Source: Candidatus Latescibacterota bacterium
GTDB lineage: Bacteria > Krumholzibacteriota > Krumholzibacteriia > WVZY01
Direction: 5' to 3'
Length of the DNA: 64,000 nucleotides
Assembly: GCA_011772205.1 (NCBI GenBank)
Contig: WVZY01000008.1
Location: forward strand, 124,001-188,000
A model generated the notes under the pieces. It did no database searches. It was not told the DNA's origin and saw only the letters and a list, made by a program, of their open reading frames with translations. Position numbers and translations under genes: made by a program. Shown piece by piece: positions 6,643 to 15,574 of this stretch. Position 1 is the first letter of the stretch, and every line of letters starts with the position of its first letter.

Positions 6643-9600
6643 TCACTTTAGCAGCACCATCTTTTTCGTACCGACAAAGCCTCCCTGCCGCAGCTGGTAA
6701 AAGTACACTCCTGATCCCACAGGATTACCGTGGTTATCTTTCCCGTCCCACGTTTTCTCGTGCCTGCCCGGCTTGAGGGACCCGCTAAAAAGGGTCCGCA
6801 CCCGCGCGCCCGTCACGTCGTAGATTACCAGCGAGACGTTCCTCGGCTGCCCTTCCGGAACCAAGAACGTGATCCTCGTCGTCGGATTGAATGGATTGGG
6901 ATAATTTTGCAGGAGCCCGGCTCTGGCAATCGGAATGTATATCTGGTCGCTGAGAATCGATCGACTGGTATCATCGGCTTGCTGGAGCTTGTATACATAG
7001 CGGCAGCCCACTTCGACGCAGCGATCGACGAGGCGGATGCGACCGTTTTCTTCCGCTGACAGATTCGATGCCACCAAGGTGTAACTCGAGGGCAGTTGAT
7101 TTTCGCGGGCGGTCCCACGGAAGACATCGTAGCAATGGAGTCCGGCGTCTCTTAGTGTCCAGACAAGCTCCACCGCTCCATCCAACAGCTGGAATGCAAA
7201 AGTGGCTTCTACGACACCTGTGGGTACAATAGATCCATAATGACCATTGCGATGAACGTTTGCATGGAACGTCGGCCAGGGAAGTTTGGTCGGATCGAGA
7301 TATCCATGTAAATCCCAGACATATAGTTTCCTATCCCATCCTGCCTCGACAAGCTCCAAATCTCCATCGCCGTCCACATCGGCTACTATCGGCGTCGCTC
7401 TAACAAAATCCCCGGTAGCTATCGGGAAACCATCGAGGAGGTCCCCATTGATATCCCAAGCGCTAATGTATTTTGTTTCGTCGCCCAGAAGGATATCGAG
7501 CGATCCATCGCTGTCGATATCTGCTACCACAGGTGAGGATTCAGTATTCGTTGTTGCCGAATACTGGATGGGCCAACCTGTGAAGTTCGCCCCCGTGTGA
7601 GTGATGACGTAGAGTTTCTTATTGTCGCTCGCCATAATGGTCTCGAGTTTCCCATCATTATCCAGATCCGCCAAGGCCGGGGACGGAGCAAAGAAGACGA
7701 TGTTGTAAGGGATCCATCGGGTCCAGAGAATCGAGCCGTCATGGTTGTAAGCATTGACCTCGCCGCTCTTTGTCGGAACAACCAACTCGAGATAATCATC
7801 GCCGTCGATATCACCTACGGCAATGCTGCCCGCTACATCCCCGTTGGTGCCCACCGGCCAGCCGGAAACGCTCGTCCCATTCTCGTTTAGTACGTATACG
7901 CTGTCGCCTAGAGTTCCGACAATGATCTCTTCCATCCCGTCATCGTCGATATCGCAGGCCGCAGGCGTTTGATAATCAAACCCGCCGGGCCAATACGTCC
8001 GGTAGAACACCCCTTGCGTCACGGGATTGTTATCGCCGTCCCGATATTCGGTGCCATCATTGTGCCATGCATAGATCACCCCCTTCTGATCCATCACAAC
8101 GATTTCGGGATCAGAATCCCCATCGAGGTCGCACACTATTGGAGCTGCTCTCACATTGGATTCCGTAGTCCTCGGCCAACCGGCAAGAGTATCACCGTGA
8201 TAATCGAAACAGTAGATCTCTTTCGTCCAATATGACGCAGCGATAATATCCATTCCCAGTACGTCATCCAAATTGCCGAGGGTAATGGGGGCGATAAATC
8301 CATCCCCGCTTGTGTTCAAGACGCCCCACGTTTGGGGGTCCGCGTCACCGTCGACCATTTCTATCCCGTCGGCATGCCAGGCATAGACGAAGTTATTGCC
8401 GGCGACGATTTCCATGTGCCCATCGCCGTCGATATCGCCAACGGCCGGAGAGCATACGGTTTCTTCCTCCATTTCTATGGGCCAACCTTCGATCTGAGGT
8501 GGGTTGGTAGCAGTAGAATACTCCAAGGATGGATCGCTCTCGTTTCCCGAAGTGTCCACCGCAGTCACTACGTAATAGTAACGGGTGCTGCCGAGGAGAC
8601 CGGCATCGAGATAAACTGTATGGTCGACGGGATCCGTGGTTCTCAGCTCATAGGGGCCTCCGGGAGATAGAGAGTGATAAACCCTGTATTTCCGCGCGTC
8701 ATTGCTATCGCTCTTAACCCATGATACTTCTATCCGGTCTGCACCAAGTCTCACATCGAACTCGAGCGCCGTCGGCGGTGAAGGCACTCTGAGCTCAATC
8801 GTGTCCCGGTAAACCCGCCCGTGCAGATCCGTAATCGTCAGCTCCAGATCGTGCTCAGTCGCCGTCGATGTCTCAAGGATATGAAAACCATCGATGTTCT
8901 CTCCTTCCGAGAGAGAGTTAAGATCCGAATAAGCGTCGGTGCTGTCGAAAAATGTGAATGCCCCTTCGAGATCCAAGAGCTCCGTCGCAAGACCGCAAGC
9001 AGCGCCTGTCCCATAGTTCTTGATTCCGTAATGGAGCTTGAATTCCTCACCCGGCTCGTTCCGACCATTACCGTTCCCGAGCGGTGCCGAATCATCGATC
9101 CGCAAGGTGATCAACTCGAGCTTCGGCGCATGGACCAAACGCGTAAACGTATCGTTCCACTCAGCCATCGATGCATCCCGGACAACCAGGGCAAACTCCA
9201 CGGCGGCTGCATCCGGAGTGCTTTCGGCAAAATGCACGCGCACCGGGTCCAGTGCCTGCTTCGTACCACCCGCCGCGATGATCCCAACAGCAGCGACGCT
9301 GTCCTCGACCGTCACCAATGAGTCATCGCTCCGAATCACTACCCACACGCTGTCCGAAGCGGCACTCCCTGTGTTCGCAAGCAGGAGCGTCAACTCCACT
9401 GTCTCGCCCGCATCGATCGAGCCGTCCGCGTTCCCAAAACTCGTCCCCGCCGAGTCGTCATCAACCGTCGTGCTCGAAAGATTCACATATGCATCCACCG
9501 ACGGATCCACAACGATATAGCTCTGATGCCTCGCTAGATTCAGACCGGTGACCACGACACTGATGCTCCCGGGAGACTCCGAGGCAAAATCAATCGTGAC

Positions 9601-11640
9601 ATTGCCTAGCGTGTTCGTGGCAGCATAAGCATAGTCGTCCGTCCCCTTCCAAAGACAAACTACCGCTGAATCTACCGGGACCCCTTCGGACGTGACGTTC
9701 ACAAGGATCGATGTGATTCCCAAGCCGACGTTCGACACATGGAATACGTTCAATGTGTCCACAGGGCCGTTCCAGAGACACATTTCTGGATCGCCCAGGA
9801 GTGCGTAGATATAGTGCGTCCATAGATCGACGTTATCCTGAGCCTCAGCGTAAGGCGTACGCGGCAACCTGGAACGGGCAAACGTCTCACCAATGTGAAC
9901 AACATCTTCGTCGAACAGGAGCCTGTAGTACTCGGTCATGTAATACGAAGTATTATACGGGAAAGCGCTCTCGACGGCCCCGATGCATGAAACGGCTCCA
10001 CCATCGGGATTTTCTAGATAAGCCTCAGCCAAACAGTTGAAGTCAAACGCCGTTGCTGTGCAGTTCAGCAGGTAGAGGTTGAAAAAACGATCAGGATGAC
10101 TCAGTGCAAGGGCCTCCGGAACTGCGATATTGCCGTTCGCCACGGACATGACGAAACGGAAGCCGTGCCCGATGTGGCAAACATGATTCAGGCCGCTTTC
10201 CATCGAATCCAGAGCTGCCTGAACGGTTTCCAGCGTGGAGCCTGGGAAGAGGTCCCACGTCTCGTACATCCGGGTGACTTCCATTGGCTCATCCAATAAG
10301 ACGGTAGAATAAAGAAATTCCGCCATGTCGGCGCCATTGAGAGTGATCGGTTCTCCCGGTTTCCAGTCGACAGGAAAGAGAACCTCCGCAAGAAATATCA
10401 TCCTGTCTTCGTAGTATAAATCATAAGGAGTTTCGTAATTGATGATCTTGTCGATCATCGTGTTCACTTCTTGAACGTTCGACGACGGCATACGGCCAAC
10501 GTAGATTTCCGGATAGAGATCGGGTTCATCCTTGGGCTCATCAATGAATCCCTCACCCCAAAGACTGTTGTGATTTGCGTTCCACGACCCATCCAGACAG
10601 GCAAAATAGATTTCCGCCGGTACTTCCTTGCCATCCTTATAAAACGCGCTGTAACCATATCTCGGCGGGATCTGGGGAGTATCTCCTCCCAAGAGCGCAT
10701 ACCCAATACCCCATTTCGCATAAGCGTCCTGGAGGAAAAATCGGATCGTCTCCTGAATGTCGACACCGTTCCTGCAATTTGCCTGGATCCATTCCACCGT
10801 CCTTACTACTGTGGGAACGCCCTTTGCCGTCTTCCAGTCGGCCAACCGCTGGTATGCGCTAGCAAACGAGTCCGGGGCAATGATCACATAATCGACGGGG
10901 CTCCCTTCGAGCGATGGGGCCGCGGTTGGTTGAAATCCACCCCGAGGCTTTTCGACGAAAATCTCATCGAAGTGATAGCGATCCAGCTCTTCCGGATTGA
11001 CGACCATCGACGTAACAAGCATGCGGCGATTCTCCGCAAAACCACCTCTTGCTCTCAAACGCCGCGCCACATCGTTCTGATCTGAAGTCGGTTCCGTCGT
11101 GATCCGCAAGGTGATATCCGCGCTCAACATGAGATCCCCCCCAGAGACCTGAAGGGGAAATATGGCGAAACTCGCAATGGCACATCCATGAAGATAGCGG
11201 GTGCCGAGATACCTGCCGATCTCGGCAGGGTACAGGCCTTTTCCGTATGGTGATCCCGTAACGGAAAATCCGCTCCTTTTAACGCCGCTTTCTGAGACCT
11301 GCGGCGGTGCAATTATCGGCTGAAAATCCCTTAAGATCACACTTCGGGCGCCGCGGATCGAGCGGAATGATCCAACCGAGTGCCCCTGGGGGAGAAGCAC
11401 ATTGACGATCCTGAAGGGGAGCTTTGGAGCGCCTTCATCTTCTAAATAATGATACCCCGCAACAGATACACCGATTTTGGACAGACCGTCTTCGGTCTCG
11501 ATAACGATGCTCTCCTCCGAAAGAGTGAGCGGAAAGACCATCTCATTCGCATACGAAACATGCGGAGTGAAAACTAACAGAGATAATACGAATGAAACGA
11601 TCCAACTGAGGGAAATTCTTGAGAGCGATTTGGGTGTCAT
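6643..11640 (-). CDS. Giant exported C25 (gingipain-family) cysteine protease with FG-GAP repeats and FlgD/T9SS-type C-terminal domain
   Basis: 1665 residues from ATG 11640 (GGGAGG five bases upstream); an in-frame ATG at 11739 lacks an RBS and would bury the signal peptide. Order: signal peptide (1-31); C25 propeptide-like region (~35-230); peptidase C25 domain with the His dyad partner in HIGHG (489-493, catalytic His492) and Cys527 in LNCTA; Ig/CARDB-like beta domains (~700-950); fibronectin III (~960-1040); about seven FG-GAP/VCBS repeats carrying DxDxDG calcium loops and GWP starts (~1045-1440); linker; and a C-terminal domain beginning NYPNPFNP (~1575) and ending in a short basic tail. 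The last domain is the FlgD-like sorting module linked to type IX-type secretion. A consensus sigma-70 promoter lies ~220 bp upstream. Likely cell-surface or secreted; no partner secretion gene is in the window. Confidence 0.9.
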   Translation of the reverse strand: MTPKSLSRISLSWIVSFVLSLLVFTPHVSYANEMVFPLTLSEESIVIETEDGLSKIGVSVAGYHYLEDEGAPKLPFRIVNVLLPQGHSVGSFRSIRGARSVILRDFQPIIAPPQVSESGVKRSGFSVTGSPYGKGLYPAEIGRYLGTRYLHGCAIASFAIFPLQVSGGDLMLSADITLRITTEPTSDQNDVARRLRARGGFAENRRMLVTSMVVNPEELDRYHFDEIFVEKPRGGFQPTAAPSLEGSPVDYVIIAPDSFASAYQRLADWKTAKGVPTVVRTVEWIQANCRNGVDIQETIRFFLQDAYAKWGIGYALLGGDTPQIPPRYGYSAFYKDGKEVPAEIYFACLDGSWNANHNSLWGEGFIDEPKDEPDLYPEIYVGRMPSSNVQEVNTMIDKIINYETPYDLYYEDRMIFLAEVLFPVDWKPGEPITLNGADMAEFLYSTVLLDEPMEVTRMYETWDLFPGSTLETVQAALDSMESGLNHVCHIGHGFRFVMSVANGNIAVPEALALSHPDRFFNLYLLNCTATAFDFNCLAEAYLENPDGGAVSCIGAVESAFPYNTSYYMTEYYRLLFDEDVVHIGETFARSRLPRTPYAEAQDNVDLWTHYIYALLGDPEMCLWNGPVDTLNVFHVSNVGLGITSILVNVTSEGVPVDSAVVCLWKGTDDYAYAATNTLGNVTIDFASESPGSISVVVTGLNLARHQSYIVVDPSVDAYVNLSSTTVDDDSAGTSFGNADGSIDAGETVELTLLLANTGSAASDSVWVVIRSDDSLVTVEDSVAAVGIIAAGGTKQALDPVRVHFAESTPDAAAVEFALVVRDASMAEWNDTFTRLVHAPKLELITLRIDDSAPLGNGNGRNEPGEEFKLHYGIKNYGTGAACGLATELLDLEGAFTFFDSTDAYSDLNSLSEGENIDGFHILETSTATEHDLELTITDLHGRVYRDTIELRVPSPPTALEFDVRLGADRIEVSWVKSDSNDARKYRVYHSLSPGGPYELRTTDPVDHTVYLDAGLLGSTRYYYVVTAVDTSGNESDPSLEYSTATNPPQIEGWPIEMEEETVCSPAVGDIDGDGHMEIVAGNNFVYAWHADGIEMVDGDADPQTWGVLNTSGDGFIAPITLGNLDDVLGMDIIAASYWTKEIYCFDYHGDTLAGWPRTTESNVRAAPIVCDLDGDSDPEIVVMDQKGVIYAWHNDGTEYRDGDNNPVTQGVFYRTYWPGGFDYQTPAACDIDDDGMEEIIVGTLGDSVYVLNENGTSVSGWPVGTNGDVAGSIAVGDIDGDDYLELVVPTKSGEVNAYNHDGSILWTRWIPYNIVFFAPSPALADLDNDGKLETIMASDNKKLYVITHTGANFTGWPIQYSATTNTESSPVVADIDSDGSLDILLGDETKYISAWDINGDLLDGFPIATGDFVRATPIVADVDGDGDLELVEAGWDRKLYVWDLHGYLDPTKLPWPTFHANVHRNGHYGSIVPTGVVEATFAFQLLDGAVELVWTLRDAGLHCYDVFRGTARENQLPSSYTLVASNLSAEENGRIRLVDRCVEVGCRYVYKLQQADDTSRSILSDQIYIPIARAGLLQNYPNPFNPTTRITFLVPEGQPRNVSLVIYDVTGARVRTLFSGSLKPGRHEKTWDGKDNHGNPVGSGVYFYQLRQGGFVGTKKMVLLK

Positions 11641-12006
11641 TGCTACCTCCCGGCTTGCCCACATTGGAACTAAATACTGGATCACGCTGGCTTGGCACCG
11701 GAGTTCCAAGACTTGCAACTGATCATTTCGATGGATCAATTTAGGGCAGCCTCTCGTGCGCCTGCCCGAACAGTAGCAATGGCGAGAATCGCTCTCCTTG
11801 AGCTGTTTGCCTTCAACATAAGCCAGCGAGAGAAGTACAGTATGCCTTTAATAGAAGAAATTATAGATTATCTATCGCAAAAAGTCAAGTATAATTAACA
11901 ACTTACGCACATCTGAGCCCGAATCCGCTCAGAAGTTTTGTTCAGCAGTTCCGGGGGAAATCTACCGACATCAGGGCTGGTGCCGACCGCGCTCGAGTAG
12001 GAATCC
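11641..12006. other. Intergenic region carrying the C25 gene leader
   Basis: 366 bp without a credible gene. It holds a sigma-70-like promoter (11860-11888) facing the C25 protease gene, giving a 5' leader of about 210 nt. A short plus-strand reading frame at 11692-11898 overlaps the promoter, has no RBS and no recognisable sequence, and is not called. No repeat or RNA gene was recognised. Confidence 0.6.
11860..11888 (-). promoter_or_regulatory. Sigma-70-type promoter for the C25 protease gene
   Basis: On the minus strand: -35 TTGACT (11888-11883), a 17-bp spacer and -10 TATAAT (11865-11860). This is one mismatch from the full consensus with ideal spacing. It faces the C25 gene start at 11640. 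Confidence 0.7.
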
Positions 12007-13565: not shown

Positions 13566-13985
13566 TTAGTCGATCGAAATCTTGTGACCGACGCTCTCCG
13601 CCTTCTTGGGAAGCGTTACCGTGAGGACACCATTGTCCATCTTGGCCTTGATCGCATCGCGATCAACGCTGGCGTCCAATCGGAAGCTTCTGCTGAACTT
13701 TTCCTCGCGGATTTCTTTCCTCAGAAGTCCCTTGTCCTCGAGTTTCTCCATACGCTCGCCACTCACGGTGAGCATGTCACCCTCGAGGGAGACCTCTACA
13801 TTCTTCTTGGAGACACCCGGCATTTCCATCGTGACCACATAAGATGTCTCCGTCTCGTTGATGTTGGCCAGCGGGCGCCGGATGCTTTCATTTCCATCCT
13901 CGAAGAACCTGGCGATTGGGAAAAACTCCCTCTCAACCGCATCCCAAAAGGTGTCTCGTTTGGGTGTCCATTTCGTCAAAAACAT
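13566..13985 (-). CDS. Small heat shock protein, Hsp20/alpha-crystallin family
   Basis: 139 residues, typical for the family. An alpha-crystallin domain occupies about residues 38-130, with the conserved NGVLTVTLPK strand near the end and the MPGV motif near 55. The ATG at 13985 has AGGAGG eight bases upstream. It is an ATP-independent holdase chaperone in the cytoplasm. The gene is monocistronic: its own terminator lies just downstream, and its promoter looks like a sigma-54 site (see 14061-14078) rather than a sigma-32 or CIRCE arrangement. Confidence 0.93.
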   Translation of the reverse strand: MFLTKWTPKRDTFWDAVEREFFPIARFFEDGNESIRRPLANINETETSYVVTMEMPGVSKKNVEVSLEGDMLTVSGERMEKLEDKGLLRKEIREEKFSRSFRLDASVDRDAIKAKMDNGVLTVTLPKKAESVGHKISID

Positions 13986-14060
13986 TTCACTTACCTCCTA
14001 ATTGTTTTGTCCAAGAATCTGAATCCGTACCACAACGATTTCAGTCTTCGTTCCGGTATA

Positions 14061-14078
14061 AAGCAACCGCAGTGCCAA
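14061..14078 (-). promoter_or_regulatory. Putative sigma-54 (-24/-12) promoter of hsp20
   Basis: The minus strand reads TTGGCAC, five bases, then TTGCTT. The invariant GG and GC are separated by exactly ten bases, as in RpoN promoters (consensus TGGCAC-N5-TTGC). It is placed to start transcription near 14051, leaving a ~65-nt leader before the hsp20 ATG. A CCTGT-N7-ACAGG inverted repeat at 14168-14184 lies ~100 bp upstream, where an activator could bind. Confidence 0.6.
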
Positions 14079-14221
14079 TCTCCAGCCAGAAAATTACACC
14101 CATAACCTCTTGTATAATAAATAAATACGGATCAAGCGCAGTTCCGGCTCAATCAGGATAATGTTGGCCTGTCATAATTACAGGACAAATTGGCACATAA
14201 TCAGAAAGATGGGCAGATCGT

Positions 14222-15574
14222 TCAGATCCTGGGCTCGTGAAGCCGAGTGCTGAGCACGAGGTTGCAGAGGGCGAAAAACAGGGCGGCGCTAAAGAGAACC
14301 GCGACTCCGAAGATGTTCAGTATCAGCCCGCCCAACGCGGGGCTAAGCATCAAAGGAAAGGTGAAGCTGTTCATGAATCCAACGTACAGCGGTCGTTTCT
14401 CCGCCGGAGCGACTTCGAGGAGATACGTAATGTTGCTGATGAATCGGCCGCTTCGGATGAGCCCATTGATAAAGAAAGTCGAGGCGATCATCCCAAACAT
14501 GATCCAAGAAGATGTAGCCACTTCACCACCCAACCGCCACCACTGCAAGACAAGGGCGATAGCAGGGGGCACGATACTCAATCCCGCTGTGATAATGAGA
14601 ACCAGCTTGTTCCCTTTTCGGTCGAGAATCCTTCCCCAGATATAATTTGAAATGACTCCTGAGCCGACCCAGAGCGACACGAACACTCCTACGCTGGCTT
14701 CGGAGAATCCCAACTCGTTTACGGCGTACGTGCTGTAAAAAGGAAACGCCATGGCGGTGAATTGCCAGCAAATTCGAACGATGTAAAACAACCGGTAATT
14801 CCTGTCGCAGAGGATCAACGAAAATCCTGTCATTAGGTGTTCGAGCATCTTGCGAGGTTTCTGGATGGATGGTGCGGGAACTTCGCCGACAAAGCAGAAA
14901 AGAAGGAGGGCGAGAGCGGTAAGCACACCCCCCAGGACGAAGAGGATGCCATAATTTATCGGGAAGTCATGCCCCAATAATCCCAACCGGCCCGCCATCG
15001 ATCCAACCGCATTCGACAGCCATCCTTCGCCAACGACCGCAGATGTCCTTTCGTTCAAAATGACACCCACCAGCACTCCAGCAAAGATCCCGAGAACCCC
15101 ACCCGAAAACCGGCGGGTTCCAAAGAACCTTCCCCGTTGCGTTACGGGGATGGTCTTGCTCGTGATCTCCAAGAAAGGAATGGCCGCGACGCCCGCTCCT
15201 ACGTTTGTAAGAAGAAAGCACATTATGAAAGAAGTGAGAAACAGGGAGGATCGCCCAGGATCCACATAGAATATGGTGAATGTGGCTCCCGCCCAGGCCA
15301 AGATCCGCAGAACGGCCATATTGCGGTAGATCCCAAGTAGATACATCCGGGTCTCAACGATTCTCGAAACGAAAACTTGGGGAAAAAACCAGCCGGCGCC
15401 GTGGATGGCGCTGACGAGCCCAATGATGAAACTGGATCCGCCCATCCGCGAGACGAAAACGGGAAGGACAGTAAAGGGATCCACGAACGCCATGCCAAAG
15501 TTGACCAGGGTGCCGTTAGCGATCCCGAGGTAGAAATTTCTCCTGAAGTATCTGCTCTCGATCGACTCTACCAT
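14222..15574 (-). CDS. Major facilitator superfamily transporter
   Basis: 450 residues with about twelve hydrophobic helices and the basic cytoplasmic loops of MFS proteins. The N-terminal helix includes NFGMAFVDPFTVLP and a GxxxGxG-like segment (GLVSAIHGAGW). No clear antibiotic- or sugar-type signature was seen, so substrate is unknown. It sits alone on the minus strand, upstream of hsp20 but separated by 236 bp that contain hsp20's own promoter. Confidence 0.85.
   Translation of the reverse strand: MVESIESRYFRRNFYLGIANGTLVNFGMAFVDPFTVLPVFVSRMGGSSFIIGLVSAIHGAGWFFPQVFVSRIVETRMYLLGIYRNMAVLRILAWAGATFTIFYVDPGRSSLFLTSFIMCFLLTNVGAGVAAIPFLEITSKTIPVTQRGRFFGTRRFSGGVLGIFAGVLVGVILNERTSAVVGEGWLSNAVGSMAGRLGLLGHDFPINYGILFVLGGVLTALALLLFCFVGEVPAPSIQKPRKMLEHLMTGFSLILCDRNYRLFYIVRICWQFTAMAFPFYSTYAVNELGFSEASVGVFVSLWVGSGVISNYIWGRILDRKGNKLVLIITAGLSIVPPAIALVLQWWRLGGEVATSSWIMFGMIASTFFINGLIRSGRFISNITYLLEVAPAEKRPLYVGFMNSFTFPLMLSPALGGLILNIFGVAVLFSAALFFALCNLVLSTRLHEPRI

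Follow-up and report, generated by a model that had tools for sequence, protein, structure and literature searches.

The small heat-shock gene hsp20 in a 64,000-nt stretch of a Candidatus Latescibacterota genome (referred to here as the window) is preceded by a conserved -24/-12 promoter of the sigma-54 type and, farther upstream, by a conserved palindrome. Across the phylum these two elements are jointly tied to hsp20 and to clpB, and genes for RpoN and for sigma-54 activators are present. The best reading of this arrangement, to which we assign a probability of about 0.87, is that hsp20 and clpB belong to a regulon that would be controlled by sigma-54 together with an enhancer-binding protein.

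Promoter and palindrome upstream of hsp20

Read on the minus strand from 14078 to 14061, the promoter element is TTGGCACTGCGGTTGCTT; its GG and GC are 10 bases apart (GG-N10-GC), 76 bp separate it from the hsp20 ATG at 13985, and it agrees with the sigma-54 -24/-12 consensus. An initial annotation of this DNA had reported the same element (TTGGCAC-N5-TTGCTT, with this internal spacing and this distance from the ATG), and each of these properties was confirmed in the sequence. The inverted repeat CCTGT-N7-ACAGG that the annotation had placed farther upstream is also present, and it proves to be a copy of the enhancer-like palindrome conserved in the phylum, CTGYCATNATGRCAG, from which the window's repeat differs by one mismatch; its core on the hsp20 strand is CTGTAATTATGACAG (14183-14169). 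The regulatory region of hsp20 comprises 236 bp and ends at the end of the MFS transporter gene (Table 1). The second hsp20 of the same genome has no sigma-54 site upstream. Elsewhere in the window, a 1698-aa ORF on the minus strand (6643-11739) seems by eye to encode a secreted protein resembling a peptidase, with a sorting-type tail at its C-terminus.

Table 1. Features of the hsp20 locus, in window coordinates
Feature	Position	Strand	Basis
hsp20, small heat-shock protein, 139 aa	13566..13985	-	ORF; Pfam HSP20, E 8e-25
Ribosome-binding site AGGAGGT	13993..13999	-	Sequence
Predicted transcription start	14051	-	12 nt past the GC of the -12; inferred from general sigma-54 geometry
Sigma-54 promoter, -24 (TTGGCAC) and -12 (TTGCTT)	14061..14078	-	Sequence and conservation before hsp20 in relatives
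A+T-rich stretch separating the palindrome from the promoter, where the DNA may bend	14096..14128	.	Sequence; IHF-like matches; inference
Enhancer-like palindrome CCTGTCATAATTACAGG, presumed activator site	14168..14184	.	One mismatch from CTGYCATNATGRCAG
MFS transporter gene, same strand, bounding the regulatory region upstream	14222..15574	-	ORF; Pfam MFS_1

The promoter motif by itself is not above chance in this genome, in which exact TGGCACN5TTGCW occurs five times and the reversed pattern nine times, so that own-genome counts offer no useful enrichment and were set aside as evidence. A class-wide count of exact TGGCACGN4TTGCW was likewise rejected, being near its control in most genomes. 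Within the window, five matches with at most one mismatch were found where 1.5 are expected, and the sole exact match is the hsp20 promoter. At up to one mismatch, the palindrome CTGYCATNATGRCAG occurs at a single place in the 4.13-Mb genome, that before hsp20, and its reversed control occurs nowhere. It is this single-copy palindrome, together with the presence of the same promoter, at a matching distance, before hsp20 in relatives, that marks the promoter as more than a chance match. On these comparative grounds we regard the sigma-54-type promoter motif before hsp20 as real, with conservation rather than rarity of the motif being the convincing property.

The palindrome is a presumed enhancer and predicted activator site. 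Its distance from the -24 element varies among relatives, from about 95 to 145 bases, and its position fits the range usual for activator sites, about -80 to -200. GlrR/QseF-type sites have the form TGTC-N10-GACA, which the window's palindrome likewise fits, but the phylum-wide site is TGYC-N5-GRCA and the targets here are chaperone genes. The A+T-rich spacer and a modest enrichment of IHF-like matches (12 at a threshold of at least 8/9 in the 40 aligned hsp20 regions, against 3.3 in simple shuffles) would fit DNA looping, although they point to it weakly.

Recurrence before hsp20 and clpB across the phylum

The initial annotation had proposed checking whether orthologues keep the motif, and they do. 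Upstream regions of hsp20 were drawn from the 73 of 79 genomes with an hsp20 match that were used, three being dropped for having less than 150 nt upstream. GGCA-N7-TGC is found in 30 of the resulting 70 regions (shuffle mean 1.32; reversed pattern 2) and a -12 variant, GGCAY-N5-TTG[AT], in a further 29 (shuffle mean 0.25; reversed pattern 0), with neither pattern present in the other 11. When 250-bp upstream windows were scored with our own position weights instead of a published matrix, a best site of at least 13 was obtained for 35 of 71 hsp20 regions; the reversed consensus reached this score in 1 of 71, and other ORFs did so in 14 of 584. In the window genome's own family, TTGGCAC...TGC lies 91-95 bp ahead of the hsp20 start codon in G075, G076, G077 and G078; the nearest named relative, CP070631.1 (Candidatus Latescibacterota bacterium bin977), has an hsp20 that is 60% identical and matches G076 at 100% over 930 bases. 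In G079, the site precedes a probable second hsp20 paralogue.

One family, f8, departs from the canonical -12 element. Its hsp20 regions (e.g. L045, L059, L063 and L110) have TTG[AT] at this position in 27 of 33 cases and TGC in none of the 33. The C of the -12 element is missing from all 33, which counts against the sigma-54 reading. The clpB promoters of f8 genomes G045, G051 and G065 keep TGC, unlike their hsp20 counterparts.

A set of 40 promoter-bearing hsp20 regions, picked because a site could be seen in them (33 canonical or near-canonical and 7 from f8), contains 52 copies of the half-site TGGCAG, against 1.9 in shuffles. TGYCA-N3-TGRCA is present in 17 of the 40, against 0.04 in shuffles, a count that describes these regions and not the phylum, since they were chosen by visible site. 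An unselected test was provided by a blind scan of 80 phylum genomes for TGCCANNNTGRCA followed, after 85-145 bases, by TGGCACN6TGC. This combination of palindrome and promoter occurs at 20 places in 19 genomes, and the reversed pattern at one; as judged by translation and coordinates, 11 of the 20 places lie before hsp20 and 9 before clpB. The window's own genome falls outside the 19 because its site reads TGTAA/TGACA. Two records beyond the 80, L126 (labelled Candidatus Latescibacterota) and L127 (labelled Gemmatimonadota), have, ahead of hsp20, TTGGCACGGGGCTTGCG together with one or two palindromes. The link to clpB had first surfaced in a looser scan for half-site and promoter, which was rejected as not specific (45 places, against about 92 for the reversed control), and the stricter blind scan then confirmed it.

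When clpB upstream regions were scored with the same weights, at least 13.5 was reached in only 7 of 29, and in none of 29 for the reversed consensus, the choice of clpB start being rough. G075 and G076, from the window genome's own family, possess clpB with palindromes and weaker promoters. In the window's own genome (assembly 96.5% complete), a full-length ClpB was not found, the search yielding only a ClpC-like protein (C8:86296-88695); the regulon may thus consist here of hsp20 alone. Upstream of clpB at L313 (G019), the palindrome lies within a G+C-rich hairpin with a run of T behind it (GGGGGCTGCCATTATGGCAGCCCCTTTTG), so that it could also serve to terminate transcription of the preceding gene.

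RpoN, candidate activators and competing explanations

A search for rpoN, which the initial annotation had put forward as a check, was positive: RpoN is encoded in the same genome (PF04552, E 1.1e-65) and, class-wide, in 76 of 78 genomes. The annotation had also suggested looking for an hsp-linked activator. Here the outcome is mixed, in that the genome encodes 23 strong sigma-54 activators (of 26 PF00158 matches), but the hsp20 flanks examined contain no activator gene, so that the linkage itself was not confirmed. The annotation's broader proposal, that sigma-54 control ties this chaperone to an enhancer-binding activator, gains support from rpoN, the activators and the conserved motif and palindrome. 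According to this model, RpoN-bearing RNA polymerase would wait at the promoter and transcribe hsp20, and dimers of an AAA+ enhancer-binding protein, sitting on the palindrome, would open the complex via DNA looping. Sigma-54 use of the promoter and activator binding to the palindrome are both predictions from sequence. Phylum-wide, one activator most likely governs both hsp20 and clpB, as the shared palindrome suggests, and the signal would be protein-damage stress.

It is very improbable that the promoter is a chance match and that hsp20 is instead driven by sigma-70, sigma-32, CIRCE/HrcA or an RNA thermometer. The background-level frequency of the promoter motif alone would be compatible with such an explanation, but the conservation of promoter and palindrome before both hsp20 and clpB argues against it, as do searches for the alternative signals. 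No sigma-70-like site was found at the window's hsp20; the sigma-32 boxes CTTGAA and CCCCAT have no exact match in the window, and the best sigma-32 site in the 236-bp hsp20 region is no better than those in shuffles. CIRCE (TTAGCACTC-N9-GAGTGCTAA) is absent from the window at up to three mismatches. A search for ROSE and other Rfam thermometers in the hsp20 leader returned nothing near the gathering score, its two weak matches both lying outside the leader on the plus strand. Alternatively, the promoter might be a sigma-54 promoter whose enhancer lies elsewhere, with the palindrome serving as the operator of another regulator, either a repressor or a helper. We consider this improbable: it would accommodate the variable spacing between palindrome and -24 element, and no activator is tied to the palindrome, but lying some 95-145 bp upstream and accompanying a sigma-54 promoter at two different genes is what one would expect of an enhancer.

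Within the preferred sigma-54/enhancer-binding-protein reading, two candidates can be named for the activator that would bind CTGCCATNATGGCAG. The 19 clpB neighbourhoods contain three activator genes, of which two stand as a pair next to clpB in G005 and the other, in G024, is unrelated. The G005 pair, an NtrX-like response regulator with a TPR-containing activator (in the window's own genome, C69, L226), lies directly upstream of clpB; all six genomes compared conserve it, and the recognition helix of the NtrX-like protein is nearly invariant. Pairs of this type, with TPR-containing partners of 1017-1038 aa, occur at loci L226, L301, L308, L279, L295, L274 and L346. Three activators in 19 neighbourhoods, however, is approximately the count expected from activator density, and although the pair is followed by a sigma-54-like site in six of the seven loci, at none of those six does the palindrome, or the two half-sites together, occur at enhancer distance. 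The pair and its downstream site would seem to be a separate sigma-54 system, and its assignment to the hsp20/clpB palindrome is a tentative idea that we think unlikely to hold.

The other candidate, a short PspF-like protein without a receiver domain (in the window's own genome, C20, L228:14002-15006) that may regulate itself, is a doubtful one. There are sigma-54-like sites in front of its gene in G000, G076 and G074, a TGACAG half-site lies upstream at about 100 bp in G074 and 225 bp in G000, and its recognition helix is common to relatives in other families; yet its promoter has no full palindrome, and the half-site pattern on which the case draws is nonspecific, with a control count exceeding the real one. 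Of 105 activator ORFs checked for half-sites in combination with a sigma-54-like site, none emerged as a clear autoregulated candidate.

Relation to known systems

Accounts of bacterial heat-shock genes usually centre on sigma-32, HrcA, CtsR or thermometers. The initial annotation had called RpoN control of small heat-shock genes rare, which is only partly right, as two precedents can be cited. A sigma-54 promoter has been reported for Escherichia coli ibpB, a small heat-shock gene (Kuczynska-Wisnik et al. 2001, as cited in PMC4370416); sigma-54 accompanies sigma-32 there, whereas at the window's hsp20 no sigma-32 signal was found, the palindrome is conserved, and clpB shares the site. A 2025 survey predicted sigma-54 control in silico for IbpA, GroEL, DnaK and others in Planctomycetota and Bacteroidota (PMC12316311), and so resembles the present case in placing such sites before chaperone genes, although in other phyla; the passages of the survey at hand name no upstream palindrome and contain neither ClpB nor Latescibacterota. 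Among further papers represented by extracts, the Desulfovibrio sigma-54 regulome has no occurrence of hsp20 in its extract (PMC4641369), that of a Geobacter IHF paper mentions an Hsp20 gene merely for its altered expression (PMC7962754), and that of a Rhodopirellula heat-shock study reports induction of ClpB and Hsp20 but saw no regulation of rpoN or other sigma genes (PMC2754498). No palindrome-linked sigma-54 regulon of hsp20 and clpB was found in the open-licence papers searched.

A more far-reaching proposal, which we put forward only as speculation and judge unlikely, is that RpoN and a single-purpose enhancer-binding protein form a regulon dedicated to hsp20 and clpB that replaces sigma-32/HrcA in aggregate handling throughout the phylum and perhaps beyond; the activator might be kept inactive by a chaperone and freed when clients compete for that chaperone. 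If the regulon is real, a conserved sigma-54/enhancer pair acting on Hsp20, a holder, and ClpB, a disaggregase, would constitute an ATP-dependent, activator-gated arm of the heat-shock response. The palindrome would then offer a specific bait with which to fish out the activator, making the signal that it senses testable. That the two elements, promoter and palindrome, recur ahead of both chaperone genes suggests that the phylum may possess a separate sigma-54 stress circuit.
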